Shown here: positions 933 to 48,932 of the stretch, one piece after another | Layout: each line of letters begins with the position of its first letter | Position numbering within the stretch: position 1 is the first letter of the stretch | Assembly: GCA_025358575.1 (NCBI GenBank) | Contig: JANYJA010000134.1 | Coordinates: 1-64,000, forward strand | Source: Terriglobia bacterium | Lineage (GTDB): Bacteria > Acidobacteriota > Terriglobia > Bryobacterales > Bryobacteraceae | DNA: 64,000 bases | Direction of reading: 5' to 3' | Made by a program: the position numbers and the translations under genes | The notes under the pieces: model-generated | The model's input: only the letters and a program-made list of their open reading frames with translations | What the model was told of the DNA's origin: nothing | Databases searched by the model: none

Positions 933-1502
933 CTATTTCCTCGCAGGCGCGTGGCGCGCCGAAGGCGTCTCACGGGAAAGCGTTCCGCGGCAGCGTTGCG
1001 CTTCCCGATCCGCTATTTGAAACTGTTGGTCTTTTTCGGTGGCCATGTCGAGCACGTATTGCTGCAGTTGCTCGCGAACCGGGCCGTCTTCAGCCGCGAC
1101 GCTCAACATCAGATCGGCCAGCGCTGGATTTTGATATTTCCTCAGGCCCTCGCCAACCGACGCCAATTCAGCATGAAATGCTTGGATGCGGAAAAGAAGC
1201 TGCAACGCGTCTGGAAGCTTTTCGGGATGCCCGAGCAGCGCCTGGGCGGACGTTGAAATTGCGTTCGCCTGAGCGATGCTGGCCTTCCACTGAATTGCGT
1301 ACGTGTCAGGCGCGCCCTGCGCCACCCATTCCCGCGGACGGATCTGTTCAAGTATCGGCATGATCCGCGAGACGCCGTCAGAAACGCCGCGCAGTGTCTT
1401 GCCAATGTCCCACGCTTGCGGAACGCTCGCCGATTGCGAACCCAACGGGCACATCGACACGACAAGCAGTAGTGAAAGCCGAAACACTCCCCACTGTATC
1501 AT
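933..1502 (-). CDS. exported hypothetical protein
   Basis: The chosen ATG at 1502 overlaps the stop of the upstream DegT gene in an ATGA arrangement, which argues for translational coupling. The frame stays open further upstream, but that extension lies inside the DegT gene. The 189-residue product begins with a classic signal peptide (Lys/Arg-poor start, LSLLLVV core, probable cleavage after SQSAS). The mature part is helical with no recognisable domain: it contains Gln/Ala-rich amphipathic stretches and a basic tail. Location in the periplasm or attached to the envelope is inferred. Function unknown. Confidence 0.7.
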   Translation of the reverse strand: MIQWGVFRLSLLLVVSMCPLGSQSASVPQAWDIGKTLRGVSDGVSRIMPILEQIRPREWVAQGAPDTYAIQWKASIAQANAISTSAQALLGHPEKLPDALQLLFRIQAFHAELASVGEGLRKYQNPALADLMLSVAAEDGPVREQLQQYVLDMATEKDQQFQIADREAQRCRGTLSRETPSARHAPARK

Positions 1503-2617
1503 TCGGTCGCGCGCAAGATGGCGTCGGAAATTTTGCGGGTCACTGCGTCGTCGCCTAACAACACGCGATGCGGAAACCAGAAGGCGTCTTGGATGCAAGC
1601 CTCCGCGATAGGGCAGGGCTCAACGCGGCAACCACCTGCCCGATAGAGCGGATTACGATAGAGCGTGTGCGGATAGAACGGCGTGCACGGCACGCCAGCG
1701 GCGACCACGGCCTTATGGAACTCGTCTCGCGTTTTGCCGAGAGATTTCGCATCGACGCGCCCCAGCAGCAAGTAGTTTGCGTGGACGCCGGATTTGGGCG
1801 GCACGTGCTGGAATGTGAGCCCAGGGACGTCCGCGAGTGCGTTGCGCACCGCCGCCGCATTGCGCATCCGGCGGCAATTTTGTTCAGGCAGCCGCTCCAG
1901 TTGCGCGAGCAGCACGGCCGCTTGCCACGCCGTGATTCGGTAATTGGTGCCAAGCGAGTAATGATGGAACCATCCGCCATCGGGTCGCCGCCCTTGGTCC
2001 GCAATGGCTCGCACACGTTCCGCAAACGCGGCATCGTTCGACGTCAACATGCCGCCTTCGCCGGCCGTCATCACCTTGGAATTCTGGAAGCTGAACGATC
2101 CCGCGGTGCCGATGCTCCCCGCGCGGCGCCCTTTCCACTCCGACCCATGCGCGTGAGCGGCATCCTCCATCAGAGTGAGCTTGCGTTCTTCCGCGAGCGC
2201 GCCAAGCCGGTCCATATCCGCCATGGGTCCGCCGAAGTGAACCGCGATAATCGCGCGTGTGCGCGGGCCAATTGCGGCTTTCACGCGCTCGGGGTCGATG
2301 TTGAAGCTGTACGGCTCGATGTCCACGAACACGGGGGTGGCCCCGACGCGAGAGACCGCGGTCGCTGTGGAGATGAACGAAATCGCGGGCACGATCACTT
2401 CGTCGCCTGCGCCGATGCCGCATGCCTCCAGCGCCATTTCGATAGTGACCGTTCCATTGAACGCGCTCACGCCGTAAGCGCATTGTTGAAATGCCGCGAA
2501 CTCGCGCTCGAGCCGCCCTACGAATTCGTGATACCCGCCCCAGCGTTCGCTTGCGAGCACGGCGCGCAGCAACTCCAGCTCGCGCTCGCCCGATATGGGC
2601 CATTGGGGAATGGTCAT
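1499..2617 (-). CDS. DegT/DnrJ/EryC1/StrS family PLP-dependent aminotransferase
   Basis: A 372-residue fold-type I aminotransferase of the family that aminates keto-sugars for surface polysaccharides or antibiotics. Visible hallmarks are the GDEVIVPAISFISTA segment, MEDAAHAHGS (the Asp that holds the PLP pyridine nitrogen), and SFQNSKVMTAGEGG, where Lys181 is the expected Schiff-base lysine. Length is normal for the family. It heads an operon with an exported protein and a Cys-rich protein and reads away from the small gene at 2631, sharing a 13-base intergenic gap. The partners are unusual because no sugar nucleotide genes are adjacent, so the substrate is unclear. Confidence 0.92.
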   Translation of the reverse strand: MTIPQWPISGERELELLRAVLASERWGGYHEFVGRLEREFAAFQQCAYGVSAFNGTVTIEMALEACGIGAGDEVIVPAISFISTATAVSRVGATPVFVDIEPYSFNIDPERVKAAIGPRTRAIIAVHFGGPMADMDRLGALAEERKLTLMEDAAHAHGSEWKGRRAGSIGTAGSFSFQNSKVMTAGEGGMLTSNDAAFAERVRAIADQGRRPDGGWFHHYSLGTNYRITAWQAAVLLAQLERLPEQNCRRMRNAAAVRNALADVPGLTFQHVPPKSGVHANYLLLGRVDAKSLGKTRDEFHKAVVAAGVPCTPFYPHTLYRNPLYRAGGCRVEPCPIAEACIQDAFWFPHRVLLGDDAVTRKISDAILRATE

Positions 2618-2630
2618 ACTTGTTAGATTA

Positions 2631-2891
2631 ATGGATGTGAGCGTCTACGAAGATCGGCGGAAGGAACTGGAGAAGCACGAGTTCATGATGGGCCTTCCGC
2701 GCGGCCGTTTGGCGGTAACGCTCGACGTGCTCACGGACGCGCTGGTGCTGGTTGGGCAGCACGGCGTTTACTGCCAGAGCCTGCGCCAGCCCGGCAAGCC
2801 CGCGATGGACATTCAGATGATTACGAAGTCGATTTCGGATGCGAAAGAATTGATTGCGGGTGTGATGGGGGAACTGAAGCGGGTTTCCTAA
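2631..2891 (+). CDS. small hypothetical protein
   Basis: An 86-residue protein starting at the ATG at 2631; an in-frame GTG further upstream (2595) would run into the DegT gene on the other strand. It is mostly alpha-helical with mixed charge, and I see no signal peptide, transmembrane segment or known motif. The central part (TLDVLTDALVLVGQHG) is hydrophobic enough to form a helical core. It is followed after 6 bases by the vsr remnant. Function unknown. Confidence 0.6.
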   Translation: MDVSVYEDRRKELEKHEFMMGLPRGRLAVTLDVLTDALVLVGQHGVYCQSLRQPGKPAMDIQMITKSISDAKELIAGVMGELKRVS

Positions 2892-2897
2892 AAGCCT

Positions 2898-3361
2898 ATG
2901 GACACAATCTGTCCCGAAGCGCGGTCAAGAAACATGGCCGCGATCCGTTCGCGCGGAAACCGCTCCACGGAGAAAGCGCTTCGAGCGCGATTGGTGCAAG
3001 CTGGAATCAAAGGCTGGAGGGTCTGTGTTCAAGACATTGAAGGCTGTCCCGATTTTGCTTTCAACTCTTGCCAAATCGCAATTTTCGTGGATGGTTCTTT
3101 TGGCATGGCTGTCCAAAATGTCACCGGCCGCCAACATCGAACACCGACTATTGGACAGCGAAACTAGCCCGCAATCGGAAACGAGATCGCCGTGTGACCC
3201 GCAATTTACGGGCACGCGGATGGCGCGTGTTGCGTATTTGGGAGCACGAACTTGCGTTGGCGCCCCTAACCGTCTTACACAGTATCAAGAAAGAATTATG
3301 TCCGTCTTCTCGGATCAAGAAGCCTGCGGAAAGTTTCGCAAGAGCCCGTGCAGCACCTTGA
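2898..3361 (+). pseudogene. vsr: vsr, very short patch repair endonuclease, frameshifted
   Basis: The first 66 codons read MDTICPEARSRNMAAIRSRG...FVDG, the amino-terminal half of a Vsr mismatch endonuclease, including the PDF Asp that binds the catalytic Mg. At 3096/3097 the frame breaks. The next frame continues exactly where Vsr should (FWHGCPKCHRP, then WRVLRIWEHEL) and ends at 3361. Restoring one G gives the canonical TGC codon of the VDGCFWHG motif, so the lesion is a single-base deletion. Vsr normally nicks next to T:G mismatches caused by deamination of 5-methylcytosine made by a Dcm-type methylase. No such methylase is seen here. A sequencing error is the alternative to true loss. Confidence 0.85.
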
Positions 3362-3473
3362 GCTGATCTTCGGGCGTTTCATGGCACGGCCCCAGGCCCC
3401 CCTACTGAGGGTTTCATATCTGTCGTTTACGCTCTTGCTGAACGAGCAATCATAAATTACCGAACTGTTGAGA

Positions 3474-4238
3474 TCACGCAAAGGTAAGCCACGAAACATG
3501 AACAGTCACTCTCTCGGTTTTCCTGAACAGGAGCGGCCCAGAAAGAGGGTTTGGGAAAATCTCATGGAATGGTAACTCCTGGAAATTCCTCACGACGAAC
3601 AGGAAGAAGCGGTCTCTCAATACCGCAGCCACGTTGTATTCCTTGGGAGTCAGCGACAAACTTCCGGTTTTCTCCTTCAGACCTTTGACCTCTACAGCCA
3701 AGAAATTTTCCTCGGCCTCGGTCCGCAACCGGAAATCATACCCACAGCCAAAGCGCGTTGTATTCTCCAGAATGTAACCTTTGAATTCAGGGAGAGTAGG
3801 CTGAATTGACTCAAAATAATGTTCCGCTGCGAGACCAGTGATCAGCCTCTTCGCGAAGCTGGACTCCGTTTCATCCGGTTCGTCGTTCGCTGGAATCTCG
3901 CGCCAGGTGTCGTCGTCGGAGCCCGCGAACGATTTGACTAAACCGGTGAAGGATTCGATATCGAGACCTTTGTATTCCTCATACAGCTTCAGGCAATAGG
4001 CGCGGATAGGCCGCTTATGCCAGCCCTTTCTTCGGTTCGGAAACAACGGGTCGAACTCATCGCGATAGTTTTTGATGGATGCAGGTCTTGACCCCATGGC
4101 GTACCCCATGACGTTAAAGGCCTCCAGGAAGCTTTCAAAGCCAAGTTTCTTCACGCCGAGAGAATCGTATTTCGAAAGATACAGCCCAATCAAGATAAGT
4201 TTTTCTCTAGTCGCGAATCGTTGTGGATTCAACGCCAT
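3474..4238 (-). CDS. DUF3883-type restriction-endonuclease-like protein
   Basis: A protein of about 254 residues. The carboxy-terminal half matches the DUF3883 / NO VEIN type of PD-(D/E)XK nuclease fold: GCGYDFRL, then FLAVEVKG (likely catalytic E-x-K), then SLTPKEYNVAA and FFLFVVRNF. The amino-terminal half is helical and contains SIKNYRDEFDP, as seen in some solitary restriction proteins. I chose the ATG at 4238; a GTG at 4262 would add eight residues. It converges on the broken vsr gene. Vsr and DUF3883 proteins often lie with C5-cytosine methylases, which suggests a restriction-modification or repair locus that has lost its methylase. The enzymatic role is inferred. Confidence 0.75.
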   Translation of the reverse strand: MALNPQRFATREKLILIGLYLSKYDSLGVKKLGFESFLEAFNVMGYAMGSRPASIKNYRDEFDPLFPNRRKGWHKRPIRAYCLKLYEEYKGLDIESFTGLVKSFAGSDDDTWREIPANDEPDETESSFAKRLITGLAAEHYFESIQPTLPEFKGYILENTTRFGCGYDFRLRTEAEENFLAVEVKGLKEKTGSLSLTPKEYNVAAVLRDRFFLFVVRNFQELPFHEIFPNPLSGPLLFRKTERVTVHVSWLTFA

Positions 4239-4271
4239 AGTCTTACGCGCCAAGCTACCCACAGCCCCGTA

Positions 4272-4916
4272 TCACCCCCGCCCCACCACCGGATTCATCC
4301 GCTTCTCACGCCCGATCGTCGTCGATTCTCCATGCCCCGCTATCACCACCACCTCATCCGGCAGCGCGAACAGCTTCCCCTGAATCGATTTCACAATCTG
4401 CTCGCTATCCCCGCCCGGCAGATCCGTTCGTCCGATATTCCCGCGGAAGAGCGTGTCCCCAGCCACCAGTTTCTGCTCGGCCGGAATCCACAAGCTGATG
4501 CTTCCCTGCGTGTGCCCTGGCGTCTCGATCACATGAAATTCAGTCGCGCCCGCCAGCACCACATCGCCTTCCCGCGCCTCCGTGTCGATGCCCGGATTCT
4601 CCGGCGTCTCCACTCCCAACCATGCCGCCTGCCAGTCCAAGCGATCGCTCAGCATGGTGTCGCGTGCGTTCATGTGCACCGGCGCGCCGGTCGCCGCTTT
4701 CAGCTTCGCCGCGCCGCCGATGTGGTCAATATGCGCGTGCGTGATCACGATCGACTTCACGGTTAGCCCGTGCTTGTTCACCATCGCCAGGATCTCCGGG
4801 ATATTGTCGCCCGGGTCCACCACAATCGCCTCGCGGCTTCCCTCGTCACCGAAAATCGAACAGTTGCACTGCAGCATGCCCACCGGCAGGATCTCGTGAA
4901 TCATCTGGTTTCCCAT
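4272..4916 (-). CDS. MBL-fold metallo-hydrolase (YcbL/glyoxalase II-like)
   Basis: 214 residues with the complete metallo-beta-lactamase signature: THAHIDHIGG (two metals bound by HxHxDH), GHTQGS, the bridging Asp in AGDTLF, and a final His in IAGHG. The compact length and ETPGHTQGSISLW region fit the YcbL-like thiolesterase subgroup rather than full glyoxalase II, which has an extra helical domain. It probably hydrolyses thioesters in the cytoplasm. It starts 37 bases from the divergent membrane-protein gene and sits 33 bases upstream of the DUF3883 gene on the same strand. Confidence 0.9.
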   Translation of the reverse strand: MGNQMIHEILPVGMLQCNCSIFGDEGSREAIVVDPGDNIPEILAMVNKHGLTVKSIVITHAHIDHIGGAAKLKAATGAPVHMNARDTMLSDRLDWQAAWLGVETPENPGIDTEAREGDVVLAGATEFHVIETPGHTQGSISLWIPAEQKLVAGDTLFRGNIGRTDLPGGDSEQIVKSIQGKLFALPDEVVVIAGHGESTTIGREKRMNPVVGRG

Positions 4917-4953
4917 TGCATCCTAGCGCAGCAACCCCTCATCATGAAGAGGA

Positions 4954-5370
4954 ATGCTTGATGTTCTTGGTGTAATCCTGCGCTGGCTGCACATTATTTC
5001 GGCGGTCGCGCTGCTCGGCGGGATGATCTACTCCCGTTTTGTCGTGACGCCCGCGCTTTCAACTCTCGTTCCCGAACTTCAACAAAAACTCTCCGACTCC
5101 ATGGCGCGGCGTTATCAGGGCTTGCTCTATACCGCCATCGCCGCGCTGTTGGTCTCCGGAACCTACAATCTGCTGCGCAAGACCGGCCTCACGCCGCTCT
5201 ACCATGCGCTGTTCGGGATCAAAATTCTGCTCGCGCTGCATGTGTTTATAGTTGGGTTTCTCGCGATGCAACCGGGCAATCAGAGGCGCGGCCGCCAAAT
5301 CACCGGCATCGTGATTTCAGGAACTCTAATTGTCGCGATCTCTGCCGTGCTGCGGAAACTTTCGTCATGA
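4954..5370 (+). CDS. small integral membrane protein (CopD/DUF2269-like)
   Basis: 138 residues with four predicted membrane helices: about 5-25, 56-75, 85-105 and 115-135. The amino terminus LRWLHIISAVALLGGMIYSRF resembles the CopD and related families, where the first-helix His may bind copper or haem. A strong ribosome-binding site (AAGAGGA) lies directly before the ATG. The stop overlaps the next start (ATGA at 5367), so it is translationally coupled to ygfZ. Its substrate is unknown. Confidence 0.75.
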   Translation: MLDVLGVILRWLHIISAVALLGGMIYSRFVVTPALSTLVPELQQKLSDSMARRYQGLLYTAIAALLVSGTYNLLRKTGLTPLYHALFGIKILLALHVFIVGFLAMQPGNQRRGRQITGIVISGTLIVAISAVLRKLSS

Positions 5371-7066: not shown

Positions 7067-7687
7067 CTACGCCTCGGCTTTGCCGATGAGGATGATCGCT
7101 ATCGGCAGGCTGCCTAAGTTCGTGTTGAGTGTCCAATCGTGCTCTGCTTCCTTGGTGAAAGAGATGCTCCCCGACCCCGGCGCGATGCTAAGTACACCCG
7201 GATGCGGGGTTCCCGTCGCTTTCACGCTCATGGCGATCACTGCCTCTTGGGTGGGCGTCGAAGCCGGATCTTTGTCCAGAGCCGCCGGGATCATGGCCAC
7301 AAAATCGCGTTGCGGTGCCGCGCCCAGGTGATCGCCGGAGACCGGCATCAGCACGTAGCGCAGCGTGTAGATTCCCGGTTTGATGGTTTGCCCGCGGCGG
7401 TCCGCGCCCTGAACCGGAAAGCGAATCACCCCGACCAGACTGCCTACCGGGATAGTTCCCATCGTGACGGCGTCCTCGGTCACCTTCGGACCGCTGGCGA
7501 CAGCCGTTCGGAACCAGACCTCACACACCGAAGACCCGCCGGCATTAACCACCCGGCTTCCGTCTTTTTGAAGCAACGAGCTTACCGCCGGTGCAAGCTC
7601 GGAAGGCGGGGAACCCGCAGGGGCAATTTTATACTGGCCGGAGGCCGCAACTGCCATTGCGGCAAAACTGAGGATTAGATTTTTCAT
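7067..7687 (-). CDS. exported hypothetical protein (DUF2911-like)
   Basis: 206 residues starting at the ATG at 7687 with signal peptide MKNLILSFAAMAVAASGQ. Upstream in-frame codons fall inside the tRNA-Gly gene and are not coding. The middle part (GVIRFPVQGADRRGQTIKPGIYTLRYVLMP, split here only for description) is a beta-rich segment like the DUF2911-type exported proteins that are abundant in Acidobacteriota. It lies 24 bases downstream of tRNA-Gly and is followed almost directly by cysH, so the three could share a transcript. Function unknown. Confidence 0.75.
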   Translation of the reverse strand: MKNLILSFAAMAVAASGQYKIAPAGSPPSELAPAVSSLLQKDGSRVVNAGGSSVCEVWFRTAVASGPKVTEDAVTMGTIPVGSLVGVIRFPVQGADRRGQTIKPGIYTLRYVLMPVSGDHLGAAPQRDFVAMIPAALDKDPASTPTQEAVIAMSVKATGTPHPGVLSIAPGSGSISFTKEAEHDWTLNTNLGSLPIAIILIGKAEA

Positions 7688-43901: not shown

Positions 43902-45251
43902 CTATGATTCGGGTACGTAAAACTGCAGACTGCGCACGATCGCAGGCGTGATTTTGCCTCCTAGCGACAATTCTCCAACATTAAAGAATGCCGGGATGCC
44001 GCTACGGAGGAGGCTAATTTGGCCGGATCGGATGCTTAATCGCACGGGCACGTGCGCCGGATCATGAATATGGCCGAAGCTAACCACGGAACCTACCAAT
44101 TCTTGCGACTTACCGACGCTCAAGACTATCTTGTTTAATTGGTGCAAGTTTACCCCTGAACTCAAGTCTAAAATAGCGTCGACTGGTGCAGGATCAATGT
44201 CTTCCACTTGTAGAGGGAGTTTCGAGAAGTCCGGTTGAATCCCAAGTCGAGTTACCTTCGTTGAAAGACCTAATTGGCGAGGCGGCGATAACCCCGGCTG
44301 CATACCACCAGACGGGCCGAAAGAAACAGAAGGCACAAGCACCGGAAGATCCTGGAAGGGCGGTGGCGTAGGACCATAACAATAGCCCAGGGTGTCGGTG
44401 TCGATGAACTGGTGCGCCTGCACGATCACTTCGGCGCTATTTTCGTCGTAAAACTTAAAGGGCTGCGAAAGAAAATTCTCAGGTGGAGTGAATAAGCCTC
44501 CCTTTGGAACATAGTTATCCCACCAATATTTCCAAAAGCGGTCCATGTTGACGTGGTGGAGGTAAAAGATTATTTCACCCGCGGAGCATGTTGGATCAGA
44601 CATCGCACTACTGAACGAATTGTGAACCACAGTGTGCGGACTTTGATATGCTTTCGGTTCCGCTTTAAGGTCCCCTGTAAAATCCTGAAACCTAGCGCTG
44701 CTGAGCCACGTTCTAAGCGTGCCGGATTCAACCGCCCCACTATAGATACCGTTTCCGAAATGCGTGTTGGCGCTAGTAAAAAAATTTGACGAGTTCATGA
44801 AGAGAGGTATTGCAGGATTGTTTTCCCAATCCCAGAACGGCAACCGGAAGTTTGGATCACAGATCAGTTTGCCAAGTATCCGCTCATGAAAGTACACGAA
44901 CGCCCGGTGCCAGGGCAGGAAGGCCCAATTGTCGTGGACCCCGGCGAGATCAGCGAGTGAGTGAATCTGCATGGAAACACACTGTCCACGTACATCACCT
45001 GGATCGAGTGCTCCCCACAGATCATACGCATGCTGGATCGACTTCCAACCGCCAGAGGCGTTAAGGTCGGAAAAGCTGGGGCGGCTTAGCACCGGCCCGG
45101 ACGGGACATGGTAGACGCCGCCTCCAAAGAACCCCTTCCAGGGGACACAGTTGCTTGCAATCCCACACACTCTAGGTGGAACTGGCATCGCGTTGAGCGC
45201 AAGACCGCTTCCACCGGCAACCAGGGATTTTAGGCACTGTCGTCTTGTCAT
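43902..45251 (-). CDS. tyrosinase-family type-3 copper oxidase
   Basis: 449 residues. The two copper sites are readable: CuA His97, His106 and His115 (QIHSLADLAGVHDNWAFLPWHR) and CuB His206, His210 and His233 (HTVVHN, FYLHHVNMDRF). The amino terminus has a Tat-like motif TRRQCLKSL before a hydrophobic stretch, so a folded, copper-loaded enzyme may be exported. The last 130 residues form a beta-rich carboxy-terminal part. The enzyme should oxidise phenols to quinones. It is the last gene after sigma factor, kinase and a 152-residue protein; its start overlaps the upstream stop (ATGA). Confidence 0.9.
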   Translation of the reverse strand: MTRRQCLKSLVAGGSGLALNAMPVPPRVCGIASNCVPWKGFFGGGVYHVPSGPVLSRPSFSDLNASGGWKSIQHAYDLWGALDPGDVRGQCVSMQIHSLADLAGVHDNWAFLPWHRAFVYFHERILGKLICDPNFRLPFWDWENNPAIPLFMNSSNFFTSANTHFGNGIYSGAVESGTLRTWLSSARFQDFTGDLKAEPKAYQSPHTVVHNSFSSAMSDPTCSAGEIIFYLHHVNMDRFWKYWWDNYVPKGGLFTPPENFLSQPFKFYDENSAEVIVQAHQFIDTDTLGYCYGPTPPPFQDLPVLVPSVSFGPSGGMQPGLSPPRQLGLSTKVTRLGIQPDFSKLPLQVEDIDPAPVDAILDLSSGVNLHQLNKIVLSVGKSQELVGSVVSFGHIHDPAHVPVRLSIRSGQISLLRSGIPAFFNVGELSLGGKITPAIVRSLQFYVPES

Positions 45252-45706
45252 TTCTTAGGGATGCCACCCTGAGCCAGGGCTTTCAAGATAAACGGCCACT
45301 GTGTCGTTGAAGGACAAGGCGGTCTGGTATAGCCAAAAGCGGCGGCAACGGCCATGGGATCGGATGTATCAAGCCTGCTCTGCCCTTTGTTCCAAAGGTC
45401 CGCAATGTTTGCGAGTTGCAAATCAACTTGGGGTGGTTGCGACCCGTTTCTCATAAGACTCCAAATTTCTGGGATAACCGCGTTTCTGAAAGAGGTACTG
45501 TCAAAAACTGTCCTAGCCTTGACCATCGTGTCAATTTTTGTGCGGATCTCTGATTGGAGGCAGAAGACCAATGCCAGTGCGTACAACTCTCCCGTGTTAA
45601 GCGGTGCCGGGTCTACTCGCGCGGCTTCGCTCTGTTGCAGCGCATCGTAACCTTTGTCCGTGATGTTCTCCGTAACCTTGTCGATCGTCTCATTACTCGC
45701 GTCCAT
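45248..45706 (-). CDS. hypothetical protein coupled to tyrosinase
   Basis: 152 residues, with a good ribosome-binding site (AGGAG). Its stop overlaps the tyrosinase start by 4 bases, so it is translated with it. No signal peptide or known domain is seen; the sequence is mainly alpha-helical with a conserved-looking Cys at the PPCPSTTQWPF segment near the end. It is separated from the kinase gene by 24 bases. It may act as a chaperone or copper-loading partner of tyrosinase, as MelC1 does in Streptomyces, but it does not resemble MelC1, so this is only inference. Confidence 0.65.
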   Translation of the reverse strand: MDASNETIDKVTENITDKGYDALQQSEAARVDPAPLNTGELYALALVFCLQSEIRTKIDTMVKARTVFDSTSFRNAVIPEIWSLMRNGSQPPQVDLQLANIADLWNKGQSRLDTSDPMAVAAAFGYTRPPCPSTTQWPFILKALAQGGIPKK

Positions 45707-45730
45707 GATATTCTCCTTTTGTCAATTGAA

Positions 45731-48379
45731 CTAACTGTCTGTCCGAAAATGCTCGGGCAGGTATTTCCTTACGAACTGAATTCCCGTTCGCTCGGGCTCG
45801 ATAACATAACGAGCCAAAGTCTGCTTCAGACCTTGCCGCTGCCGGTCGAATTCGGCGGGCATTCCCGCCGCCTTCGCGGCGCGGGCGAGATACTCGGGCC
45901 ATTCTCTCATTTCTCCGTTTGAGGGCAAGTCGCTGAGTAACTGAAATGCTCGCGTGGCTTCGCCCTTCGCGAGAGCGATCTCACCCTGAAGCCGCTTCGA
46001 CCAGTGCTGATATATGGGCCAGTCCTTAAGCCCTGGAACCTTACACTTTTCAGCGGCGGAAGTCTGGCCGAGTTGCGCCAGCAGACATCCAATGTGCATA
46101 CGCTCTTTGTAGCCGGACCTCGGTATCAGCGCAAGAATTTCGCGGCATTGGTCGATCGCAGTCTTATGGTCACCCTCGAGAAGAGTGAGTTGTGCAAGAA
46201 GCCTCCGCTTTACGAGACTGTTCGCCAGGAAATTTTTCTTTACGTCGAAATCCAGCCCGTCGTTCAGGCTTGCGCGAGCTTCTTTTGTAGCTCCGTGCTC
46301 GGCATTTATCCAGGCTTTGAGAGTGTAGCCGCGGCTCTTGACCTTCGGGTCCGCACTCGCAGCCACACGGTCGATAGCTCGTTCCTGGGCGGGAAACTGC
46401 CGCAGGGCGAAAAGGATCGAGGCTTGGGTTTGGTCAAGCCAGCCCTCGTCGGATTCGGCGGGCTTAGCGCCCTTTAATGTTTCAAGCGCCGCTTTTAACT
46501 GGCCCGAATCAGCCTGTAAGTTCGCTTTTTGGACAACAAACTTCCAGTTCTTAGGATCCTTGGCAAGTGCGTCTTCGATTAATCCCAGGGCTTGCTTCCC
46601 GCGTCCTAGAGCACTAGCGACAGATGCCTGATAAAAATATCCAAGGCCGTCGTCCGGGTAGGTCGCCTTGTACAAATCGTAAACCTGCTCGGACTCATCC
46701 CAATTGCCAGTATCGGACGCGAACTGGCCGCGAATTTTAAACCCTTCCTTCGCGGTCAGCGGATTTTGTTTGGCTAACTCGGCGGCCCGCGCCGAATAAC
46801 GGAGGCCTTCGTCAGAACGACCGAACGAAACTAAAATGTCGCCAAGTCTACCTTCAGCGGCCGCGAATTGCGGATCGATCTTAATGGCTTCCGTAAAGCG
46901 GGCGATGACGTCCTCGGAAGGCTTACCCGTATTGAAGGCTTCGTCGCCGGCGACATACTGCTCCAGAGCGGCCCATTTGGACGTTGTCAGTTCGGGCATT
47001 GGAGAGGAACGCGGCGTCACCCCCTGGCGGCCAAGCTCGCCACGGACCCACGAAGCGGCGCTGTCGGGGACCCCCAGAAGGTCGTCTATGTTATTCACAT
47101 CCATTTCCGTGGTGTGCAGGTGGCCGGAAATTCTAAGTCGAAGCTGAACCTGGAATTGATCGGCAATCCTGCCTAACTGCGCAAAAAGCACACCTGTGGC
47201 TCCCTCGGCGGCGGCGATGCGTTGGGCAGTCGTTTCATTGACCGGTTGATCCTCCAAGCCCAATTCCTTGCGCCTGTCCGCAATTTTCTTATCACTAACT
47301 AACTCGATTTTGTCGGAGCTGCGGATTTTGTTCGAAAGGACGCGCTCGAAGGCCTGGGCCATCGCGACGGAGTTGGGAAGGTCGGGTGTGGCTATGACTG
47401 GCAAGAGCATAATCAATGGAACCGCTGGAATGTGGCTCTGTACTATATAGCGGTATCCGTAACCGGAAAAGGCCAAAGTCGCCGCGCCGCCCGCAAGCCA
47501 CAACAATTTTCGACGACCTTGACGCCACTGAACCGAACTCTCTAGCCGCAAGACCAGTGCATTGGCTGAAGGAAAGCGCTCTTGTGGATTTATGGACCGA
47601 GCCCGATCGATTGCGTGTTTCCATCTTTCGGATGGGGGCTCTTTCACCATGACGCAAACGATTTGCCCCAGGGCATAGATATCGGTCGCGGGAGAAACGG
47701 TTCCACCGGAAAACTGTTCCGGGGCCATAAACGCGGGAGTGCCCAAGCGATCGACGGTTCGGGTGAGCGGCGTATCCATATCGAAACTTTTGGCTAAGCC
47801 AAAATCCATCAAGACGGGCCGATCCCACTGCTTGTCGACGAGCATTATGTTGCCGGGCTTCAAGTCGCGGTGCACAATGCCGCGAGCGTGAGCCGCATCG
47901 AGGCCGGCCGCGATACCGCGCAATACGATCAGAGCGCGTTCGGGGGTGACATCGGGCTCTCGCTTTAGGCGCTCGGCGAGGGTCTCCCCCGGCAAGTACT
48001 CCATGGTGTAGAAACGGAGCGCGGGTTTGCGCTGGGAGTCCACGCCGAAATCGTAAACGCGGCACACGTTGGGGTGGCTAACGTTTAGCGCGGCTCCAAT
48101 TTCAGTCAAGAAGCGGTCGGCGAAACGCGGGTCCGCGCTATAGACCGGCAAGACGGTTTTGAGCGCGCGCTCTTGTCCGGAACGCAGGATGTCTTTTACC
48201 AAATAAACTTGACCCATACCGCCGGCCCCGATTTCCGCAACGATTTCAAAGCGGTTAGACACCACATCGCCAGCCTTCAATAAGGATGGCAAAGTATAAA
48301 CGGGCTTAAAGAAATCGTCCGCGGAGCCTTCGCCGGATTTCTCGTCGCGGTCAGGTTGTGGGGGTATTGGATCCGGCAT
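45731..48379 (-). CDS. Ser/Thr protein kinase with transmembrane segment and TPR region
   Basis: 882 residues. The kinase domain at about 44-282 has the glycine loop GAGGMGQVY, ATP Lys in ERALKTV, HRDLKPGN (170-177), DFGLAKS and APEQFSGG. One membrane helix at about 291-313 follows. The outer part first has a region that reads LLPVIATPDLPNSVAMAQAF, then about ten tetratricopeptide-like helix pairs (residues 450-860, with GYFYQASVASALGRGKQALGLIEDALAKDPKNWKFV quoted in part). This is the bacterial PknB-type receptor kinase of Acidobacteriota. It overlaps the sigma gene by 29 bases and probably phosphorylates it or a partner. Confidence 0.93.
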   Translation of the reverse strand: MPDPIPPQPDRDEKSGEGSADDFFKPVYTLPSLLKAGDVVSNRFEIVAEIGAGGMGQVYLVKDILRSGQERALKTVLPVYSADPRFADRFLTEIGAALNVSHPNVCRVYDFGVDSQRKPALRFYTMEYLPGETLAERLKREPDVTPERALIVLRGIAAGLDAAHARGIVHRDLKPGNIMLVDKQWDRPVLMDFGLAKSFDMDTPLTRTVDRLGTPAFMAPEQFSGGTVSPATDIYALGQIVCVMVKEPPSERWKHAIDRARSINPQERFPSANALVLRLESSVQWRQGRRKLLWLAGGAATLAFSGYGYRYIVQSHIPAVPLIMLLPVIATPDLPNSVAMAQAFERVLSNKIRSSDKIELVSDKKIADRRKELGLEDQPVNETTAQRIAAAEGATGVLFAQLGRIADQFQVQLRLRISGHLHTTEMDVNNIDDLLGVPDSAASWVRGELGRQGVTPRSSPMPELTTSKWAALEQYVAGDEAFNTGKPSEDVIARFTEAIKIDPQFAAAEGRLGDILVSFGRSDEGLRYSARAAELAKQNPLTAKEGFKIRGQFASDTGNWDESEQVYDLYKATYPDDGLGYFYQASVASALGRGKQALGLIEDALAKDPKNWKFVVQKANLQADSGQLKAALETLKGAKPAESDEGWLDQTQASILFALRQFPAQERAIDRVAASADPKVKSRGYTLKAWINAEHGATKEARASLNDGLDFDVKKNFLANSLVKRRLLAQLTLLEGDHKTAIDQCREILALIPRSGYKERMHIGCLLAQLGQTSAAEKCKVPGLKDWPIYQHWSKRLQGEIALAKGEATRAFQLLSDLPSNGEMREWPEYLARAAKAAGMPAEFDRQRQGLKQTLARYVIEPERTGIQFVRKYLPEHFRTDS

Positions 48380-48932
48380 TGCGCATCAGGCGCCGCAGTT
48401 CCCGCGTGGCATCCCGAAGATCCCGCTTCACAGTTGTTACGGAAACATCGAGGATAGACGCAACCTCTTCATGCGTCCACTGAACGAACATGACCAGTTG
48501 TACGATCTGGGCCGCGCGGGGGTTAGTCTGGGCAAACTGATCGAGGACTTCGTGTATGGCGATGATCTCCTCCGGATCGCGCTGCAGCTTCAACATGTCG
48601 TCGCGTAACTCAACCTGTATGAGGCTGCCGCCGCGCTTTTGCGAGCGGATGGCAAGAGCGCGATCCACGATGATGTGGCGCATGGTCCGCGTGGCGATGG
48701 CGATGAAATGGTCGCGATTGGTTATATCCAAATGTTTGGACTGCTGAAGGCGAATGAAAACTTCCGCGACCAAGCCAGTGGGGCCGATGGAATCACTCTT
48801 ATGTTTAGCTCGGACCGATGCGCGGGCGATTCTGTGCAGGCTGGTGTACAGCTCGGCAAACAGATGGTCTTGCGCGGACCGGTCCCCCTCCTGCCAAGCG
48901 TGAATCAGTACCGTGATCTCGGGCGACGCCAT
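48351..48932 (-). CDS. ECF RNA polymerase sigma factor (TIGR02999-like)
   Basis: 193 residues from the ATG at 48932 (a GTG and a farther ATG are in frame). Region 2 shows LFAELYTSLHRIARASVRAKH and the -10 recognition region, with GPTGLVAEVFIRL; region 4 has WTHEEVASILDVSVTTVKRDLRDATRELRRL, a helix-turn-helix. The extended form is like the TIGR02999 ECF sigma factors of Acidobacteriota and Planctomycetes, which stand next to kinase-TPR genes. It overlaps the kinase start, so the two are coupled. It is preceded by 55 bases and the MFS-spermidine synthase gene. It probably transcribes this operon. Confidence 0.92.
   Translation of the reverse strand: MASPEITVLIHAWQEGDRSAQDHLFAELYTSLHRIARASVRAKHKSDSIGPTGLVAEVFIRLQQSKHLDITNRDHFIAIATRTMRHIIVDRALAIRSQKRGGSLIQVELRDDMLKLQRDPEEIIAIHEVLDQFAQTNPRAAQIVQLVMFVQWTHEEVASILDVSVTTVKRDLRDATRELRRLMRNAGSNTPTT

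Follow-up and report, generated by a model that had tools for sequence, protein, structure and literature searches.

The window (the whole stretch of 64,000 nucleotides that was analysed) contains a unit of four genes on the minus strand, the strand of all features located below. In reading order these encode an ECF sigma factor of the TIGR02999 / Sigma70_ECF type (48351..48932, 193 aa, ATG start; assigned by TIGR02999 and Pfam), a probable membrane Ser/Thr kinase with a C-terminal TPR region (45731..48379, 882 aa; PF00069 and TPR_19), a small protein predicted to be helical (45248..45706, 152 aa), which is family-less but has a counterpart at the same position in other units, and a tyrosinase / polyphenol-oxidase-like type-3 copper protein (43902..45251, 449 aa; PF00264 and PF12142). 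The sigma and kinase genes overlap by 29 bases, a gap of 24 bases containing the ribosome-binding site AGGAG of the small gene (45713..45717) separates the latter from the kinase gene, and the small gene overlaps the tyrosinase gene by ATGA; the four genes and junctions described in an earlier note on this DNA are all present, with the same overlaps and gap. No prominent terminators are found between the genes (9 terminator-like sites, compared with 6.2 +/- 3.0 in shuffled sequences), and the genes are probably co-transcribed. Since the flanking genes vary among the other units read, the unit apparently consists of these four genes.

The sigma factor, the kinase and the tyrosinase

The sigma factor scores 152.6 bits against the TIGR02999 model (cut-off 126.15), in agreement with the type named in the earlier note, and matches PF07638 of Pfam with E=1e-35; the search of solved structures gave no match. 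In region 2.2 the acidic DAED motif is replaced by GPTG, and Thr52 (codon 48777..48779) is a candidate phospho-acceptor. Based on the alignment, Thr52 occupies the slot of the phosphorylated Thr in the STTA motif of EcfP, and the window sigma factor carries the Thr slot expected in a kinase-activated sigma factor. The third position of region 2.2 is Thr or Ser in 53 of the 56 aligned sigma factors, so the slot is a trait of the whole sigma family and is not specific to the unit. In the sigma tree, three of five unit sigma factors group together with good support, and a group of four is moderately supported. TIGR02999 matches number 26 in genome G356 and 18 in G367; the window's own genome (G000) has few sigma factors of this type (5 matches, 2 of them over the cut-off). 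A sigma-binding motif repeated before the homologues, which the earlier note had proposed to look for, did not emerge: no promoter motif is common to the regions upstream of five units, and a match to AAC-N17-CGT at -41 occurs in the window only among the unit upstream regions compared.

The kinase matches PF00069 with E=1.5e-35 and TPR_19 with E=9e-12. Its catalytic domain (residues 45-255, 47615..48247; Pfam match) has intact catalytic motifs (GAGGMGQV, ALK, HRDLKPGN and DFG). A hydrophobic stretch at about residues 292-331 (47387..47506) is a probable membrane span, judging by hydropathy, and the C-terminal TPR region (45734..47386) is presumed to be an extracytoplasmic sensor. Similar regions are found in two families of putative peptide-modification proteins, TIGR04510 (C-terminal TPR region) and TIGR03903 (kinase domain); however, the scores are far under the curated cut-offs, the cyclase domain is absent and no known precursor family is adjacent. 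For TIGR04510 the window kinase reaches E=1e-22 and 80.5 bits, far under the curated 400, and the match covers the TPR region only.

Concerning the tyrosinase, the match to PF00264 has E=4.8e-27 and 96.2 bits (cut-off 22.6) and that to PF12142 (PPO1_DWL) has E=1.3e-6. All six copper-ligand histidines are present (H97, H106, H115, H206, H210 and H232/H233) and the N-terminus is Tat-like (TRRQCLK), which bears out the earlier description of a Tat-like exported type-3 copper oxidase. The combination of Tyrosinase and PPO1_DWL domains with six histidine ligands is that of plant-type polyphenol and catechol oxidases, which are also the nearest solved relatives (best PDB matches); the window enzyme differs from these in being bacterial. 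In many polyphenol oxidases the cysteine of an HxxxC motif forms a His-Cys thioether. Most unit and related enzymes have HxxxC, whereas residues 97-101 of the window tyrosinase are HSLAD, so that it lacks the thioether-forming cysteine which most of its close unit relatives retain.

Recurrence of the unit and exchange of its enzyme

A tyrosinase search across 399 genomes of the class gave matches in 19 genomes, and the top two matches adjoin a kinase-TPR gene; a tyrosinase pattern search in the wider genome-contig collection gave none. We also scanned 237 family genomes with PF00264, found tyrosinases in 44 and read their neighbourhoods. The complete order (sigma factor, kinase-TPR, small protein, tyrosinase) is found at L023 (G356), L024 (G371), L034 (G367), L033 (G063) and L196 (G332), that is in five genomes of the same family and of other genera. 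Two further loci are cut by contig ends: at L029 (G161) the contig end is followed by the small gene overlapping the tyrosinase gene, and at L175 (G455) the contig begins just before the kinase. Two others (L230 and L242), which were found by a family search with the C-terminal half of the kinase, have the genes of the kinase, the small protein and the tyrosinase and lack a sigma gene directly upstream. In total there are ten tyrosinase loci: six complete (including the window), two cut by contig ends and two without the upstream sigma gene. Several of the loci read lie on short contigs. The check proposed in the earlier note, that the four genes be sought together elsewhere, thus gave five complete units in other genomes and partial ones at four more loci. 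The four-gene order is beyond chance and recurs in divergent genomes.

The association is a property of the ten loci and not of tyrosinase generally, as many tyrosinases of the family lack neighbours of this kind. The earlier note had named tyrosinase and small gene occurring without the sigma-kinase pair in relatives as the case against its reading: many family tyrosinases do lack the pair, but they belong to other lineages, and in no case was the small gene found apart from the kinase. A single co-inherited lineage of unit tyrosinases was considered and rejected, as these are placed at several positions of the tree on long branches. At L179 (G213, reverse coordinates 999-5284) the order is sigma factor, tyrosinase, kinase, with no small gene between them.

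As controls we used about 50 other TIGR02999 sigma loci of five genomes, most of which are two-gene units; the majority of the control sigma-kinase pairs have unrelated genes downstream. These ordinary pairs share the sigma family and the kinase-TPR layout with the unit, but they have neither the motif-bearing small protein nor the oxidase, and the C-terminal halves of their kinases are unlike those of the unit clade. Compared with the window kinase, the unit kinases of L023, L024, L033 and L034 match over almost the entire length at 235-362 bits, whereas control kinases score at most 169 bits (<=169), with the match mostly confined to the kinase domain. The C-terminal TPR region of the window kinase is 21-29% identical to that of other units over about 570 aa. 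In a quick tree of 41 sigma-linked kinases the first five unit kinases cluster (SH-aLRT 78) within an eight-row group at 99. By these comparisons the unit kinases are a subclade set by the C-terminal half. Two details of individual loci were also observed. At L033 (about 7640-7670) the frame of the unit kinase apparently shifts near the 3' end, beyond which the gene continues in a different frame as far as the small gene; the change is either an assembly error or a broken gene. At L082 (3182-4867, G356) the opposite strand encodes a protein that by eye looks YcaO-like, and its gene overlaps the end of a sigma-linked kinase gene akin to the unit kinases.

The family search with the C-terminal half of the kinase (alignment A4) gave matches of graded strength, from which 20 further loci were read. 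A DyP-type peroxidase replaces the tyrosinase in three (L244 and L247 by profile, L243 by sequence likeness). A secreted haem protein with a single CxxCH is found in nine (L232, L233, L235, L237, L238, L240, L241, L245 and L248). Those mono-haem proteins that were tested have no match in Pfam or NCBIfam; most are similar to each other by BLAST, that of L237 only weakly. Conserved Trp-rich stretches (WxWxTxxW) are seen in this group, and its genes are mostly located downstream of the small gene. L234 encodes a 282-aa protein with histidine motifs which, by eye only, resemble those of tyrosinases. L231 and L236 contain the small gene but no enzyme gene, L237 and L239 lack the small gene, and L246 and L249 have no convincing one. 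Among the kinase-small gene loci three variants lack the upstream sigma gene, two with tyrosinase and one without an enzyme.

The type of enzyme follows the kinase phylogeny: the quick tree (no bootstrap) requires 6 changes compared with a mean of 12.1 after shuffling, and 0 of 200 shuffles gave a number as low. In the same tree, again without bootstrap, tyrosinase is found in at least two places, one of them beside the DyP group, which implies that enzymes have been exchanged. In a sample of 124 genomes of the phylum the best match to the kinase subclade outside the family was 192 bits, a generic level, so the module looks confined to the family. The earlier note had suggested that the sigma-kinase pair is dedicated to phenol oxidation or melanin-like chemistry; in that form the suggestion is not supported, as DyP-type peroxidases and mono-haem proteins, too, are preceded by a kinase of this subclade and a small protein. 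The idea behind it is partly supported, in that the conserved module is real, and broader than phenol oxidation.

The small protein

The 152-aa protein of the window has no sequence match in Pfam, NCBIfam or PDB, and no close relatives were found by pattern or sequence in 299 class genomes or the wider genome-contig collection. A small-protein profile run over 237 family and 396 phylum genomes returned the known units and otherwise marginal matches that we judged to be chance. In the first eight tyrosinase loci the small proteins have 110-156 aa and are 14-30% identical to that of L023; leave-one-out profiles recovered those of the window, L023 and L024, gave a weak match for L033 and did not recover L034. 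Fold predictions are helical with low confidence (the mean pLDDT is 50 in the window protein and 69 in L023), and the L023 model has no match among PDB folds. By eye, the N-terminus of the L023 protein resembles Nif11. We rejected a Nif11 or NHLP leader, as the leader models of Pfam and NCBIfam gave no match even at E values up to 10; among 61 relatives searched for Nif11 there was a single match, located elsewhere.

The common trait is found near the C-terminus. In the window it is Y126-TRPP-C131-P132 (45311..45331), identified by motif comparison among units. The pattern Y-x(2-5)-C, 26-36 residues from the C-terminus, is present in seven of the first eight tyrosinase-unit proteins, and the eighth has Y-x5-HP. 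His takes the place of Cys in L196 and L231, an exchange as expected for a ligand. A small ORF lies directly downstream of 25 of the 27 unit-type kinases (a mechanical count which includes the doubtful ORFs of L246 and L249), compared with 15 of 34 controls. The motif [YW]-x(1-5)-[CH]-P is found near the end of this ORF in 16/27 unit-type kinases and in 0/34 control pairs; this enrichment is descriptive, the motif having been picked after the unit sequences were viewed and four of the 16 being near relatives. In profile comparisons L231 is linked to the core tyrosinase-unit set at 72-85% and L232 weakly at 41%, and there was no link to the DyP or haem sets. The position and tail common to the sets of small proteins could be convergent.

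In most units the small gene overlaps or nearly abuts the enzyme gene. Most of the small proteins have no export signal, which is present on the enzyme instead: the window protein starts MDASNETIDKVTENI without a Tat signal, and the Tat-like start is on the tyrosinase. An exception is the small protein of L232 (4904-5482, G416), which carries a Tat-like signal of its own (TITRRELGAMAAVLMAP); the window protein and most others do not.

Proposed mechanism and comparison with known systems

Kinase-activated sigma factors of group ECF43 are known in Vibrio (EcfP/PknT) and Xanthomonas (EcfK/PknS) (PMC8999054). In EcfP, the Thr in the region 2.2 slot is phosphorylated by the adjacent kinase, which supplies the charge needed for binding RNA polymerase (PMC8999054). 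The window resembles both systems in that a Ser/Thr kinase gene lies beside the ECF sigma gene (overlapping in the window and adjacent in the other complete units), DAED is absent and a Thr occupies the slot phosphorylated in EcfP. By analogy with EcfP, the kinase likely activates the sigma factor. Unlike these ECF43 systems, the window sigma factor is typed as TIGR02999 by the subfamily model and its phosphorylation is a prediction; the window operon also includes an effector pair, the small protein and the oxidase.

We propose that the membrane kinase would use its C-terminal TPR region to sense a cue outside the cytoplasm and phosphorylate the neighbouring sigma factor on Thr52, the phosphate standing in for the acidic RNA polymerase-binding motif and switching the sigma factor on. 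The sigma factor would then raise the expression of, among others, the small helical protein and the exported redox metalloenzyme, which in the window genome is the tyrosinase and in relatives a DyP peroxidase or a mono-haem protein. The two would be co-produced by coupled translation, the small protein acting as the dedicated partner of the enzyme: most likely it would bind the enzyme before or during export and offer its Tyr/Trp and Cys/His-Pro tail to the active site. Our leading but tentative interpretation is therefore a modular, kinase-switched oxidation operon in which the small protein is a plug or maturation partner of the enzyme. We favour a partner role in view of the overlap or close abutment of the two genes. 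At L231 and L236, however, the small gene has persisted with no enzyme gene beside it, which favours a link to the kinase as well. Also, tyrosinases of similar architecture without a small protein are common, so the small protein is not generally needed, and the C-terminal region of the enzyme may already shield the active site. Further points against the model are the three variant loci with no sigma gene upstream, the failure to find a promoter motif common to the units, the weak sequence links among the small proteins and the export signal that most of these lack but the enzyme has.

It is possible, though somewhat unlikely, that the small protein is part of the signalling machinery. It would then bind the TPR region or the sigma factor and tune the switch, for instance as an adaptor that senses metals or redox state by means of Cys/His-Pro, with the enzyme as the output. 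Its gene follows the kinase even at the two enzyme-less loci and tracks the kinase subclade and not one enzyme family, and the Cys/His exchange would suit a metal or haem ligand. However, the overlapping or abutting genes of most units point to the enzyme as the partner, most copies lack an export signal while the TPR region is presumed to be outside, and L237 has the kinase and the haem protein with no detectable small gene.

Tyrosinases and DyP peroxidases are able to oxidise aromatic side chains. The small protein could also be a substrate, RiPP-like or redox-matured, with the neighbouring enzyme oxidising or crosslinking its C-terminal Tyr/Trp and Cys/His under the control of the sigma-kinase pair, which we regard as rather unlikely. 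The chemistry of the enzymes would fit, the aromatic residue is retained across enzyme types, both the small proteins and the unit tyrosinases diverge rapidly, and the likeness of the kinase C-terminal region to TIGR04510, a 'putative peptide modification system cyclase', extends from the window to L233 (E=2.5e-37). Against it, the small proteins match neither Nif11/NHLP leaders nor any precursor family, the unit has no peptidase or transporter, a mono-haem c protein would be an unusual tailoring enzyme and some members have His in place of the Cys. The broader form of this idea, a new class of kinase-switched oxidative protein modification, appears to us quite unlikely; here each cassette would make one small protein, and an exchangeable oxidoreductase (tyrosinase, DyP peroxidase or the unannotated haem protein) would have the aromatic-x-Cys/His-Pro tail of that protein as its dedicated substrate.

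The closest precedent for a small gene before a tyrosinase is melC of Streptomyces (MelC1 and MelC2), in which Tyr98 of the caddie protein enters the active site of the tyrosinase and becomes dopaquinone (PMC6312201). Common to melC and the window are the small gene directly upstream of the tyrosinase gene, Tat export and a Tyr that could potentially enter the active site (PMC6312201, PMC8375020). In the window, however, the Tat-like signal is on the enzyme and not on the small protein, which is family-less and predicted to be helical, the enzyme has its own C-terminal region, a sigma-kinase pair is attached and haem enzymes can substitute for the tyrosinase. It is very unlikely that the small protein is a tyrosinase-specific copper carrier or folding chaperone, despite the precedent of MelC1, encoded directly upstream of its tyrosinase (PMC8375020), and the conserved Cys/His: equivalent small genes precede haem enzymes, and related Tat tyrosinases have no small gene. 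The copper carrier put forward in the earlier note fits poorly for the same reason, since haem enzymes, which the small protein also accompanies, can replace the tyrosinase. A fortuitous neighbourhood has virtually no chance of being correct, for although sigma-kinase pairs are abundant and most precede unrelated genes, the recurrence of the same order in divergent genomes rules it out, and the kinase subclade and the common motif also speak against it.

No paper on the pairing of a sigma-kinase pair with a small protein and an oxidase was found in the open-access literature, most subscription journals lying outside that scope. A kinase-linked ECF sigma factor is of a known kind; the effector arm, a small protein with an exchangeable oxidase, is new. 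Extracellular phenol-oxidising enzymes of soil bacteria are relevant to carbon turnover in soil and peat (PMC8375020). In some genomes of the family sigma-kinase pairs occur by the dozen, few of them with a characterised target, and with a definable kinase subclade that has its own effector genes, what such switches control and sense becomes testable. That one switch and one kind of small protein are combined with a tyrosinase, a DyP peroxidase or a haem protein suggests that these small proteins have a common job which is so far undescribed.
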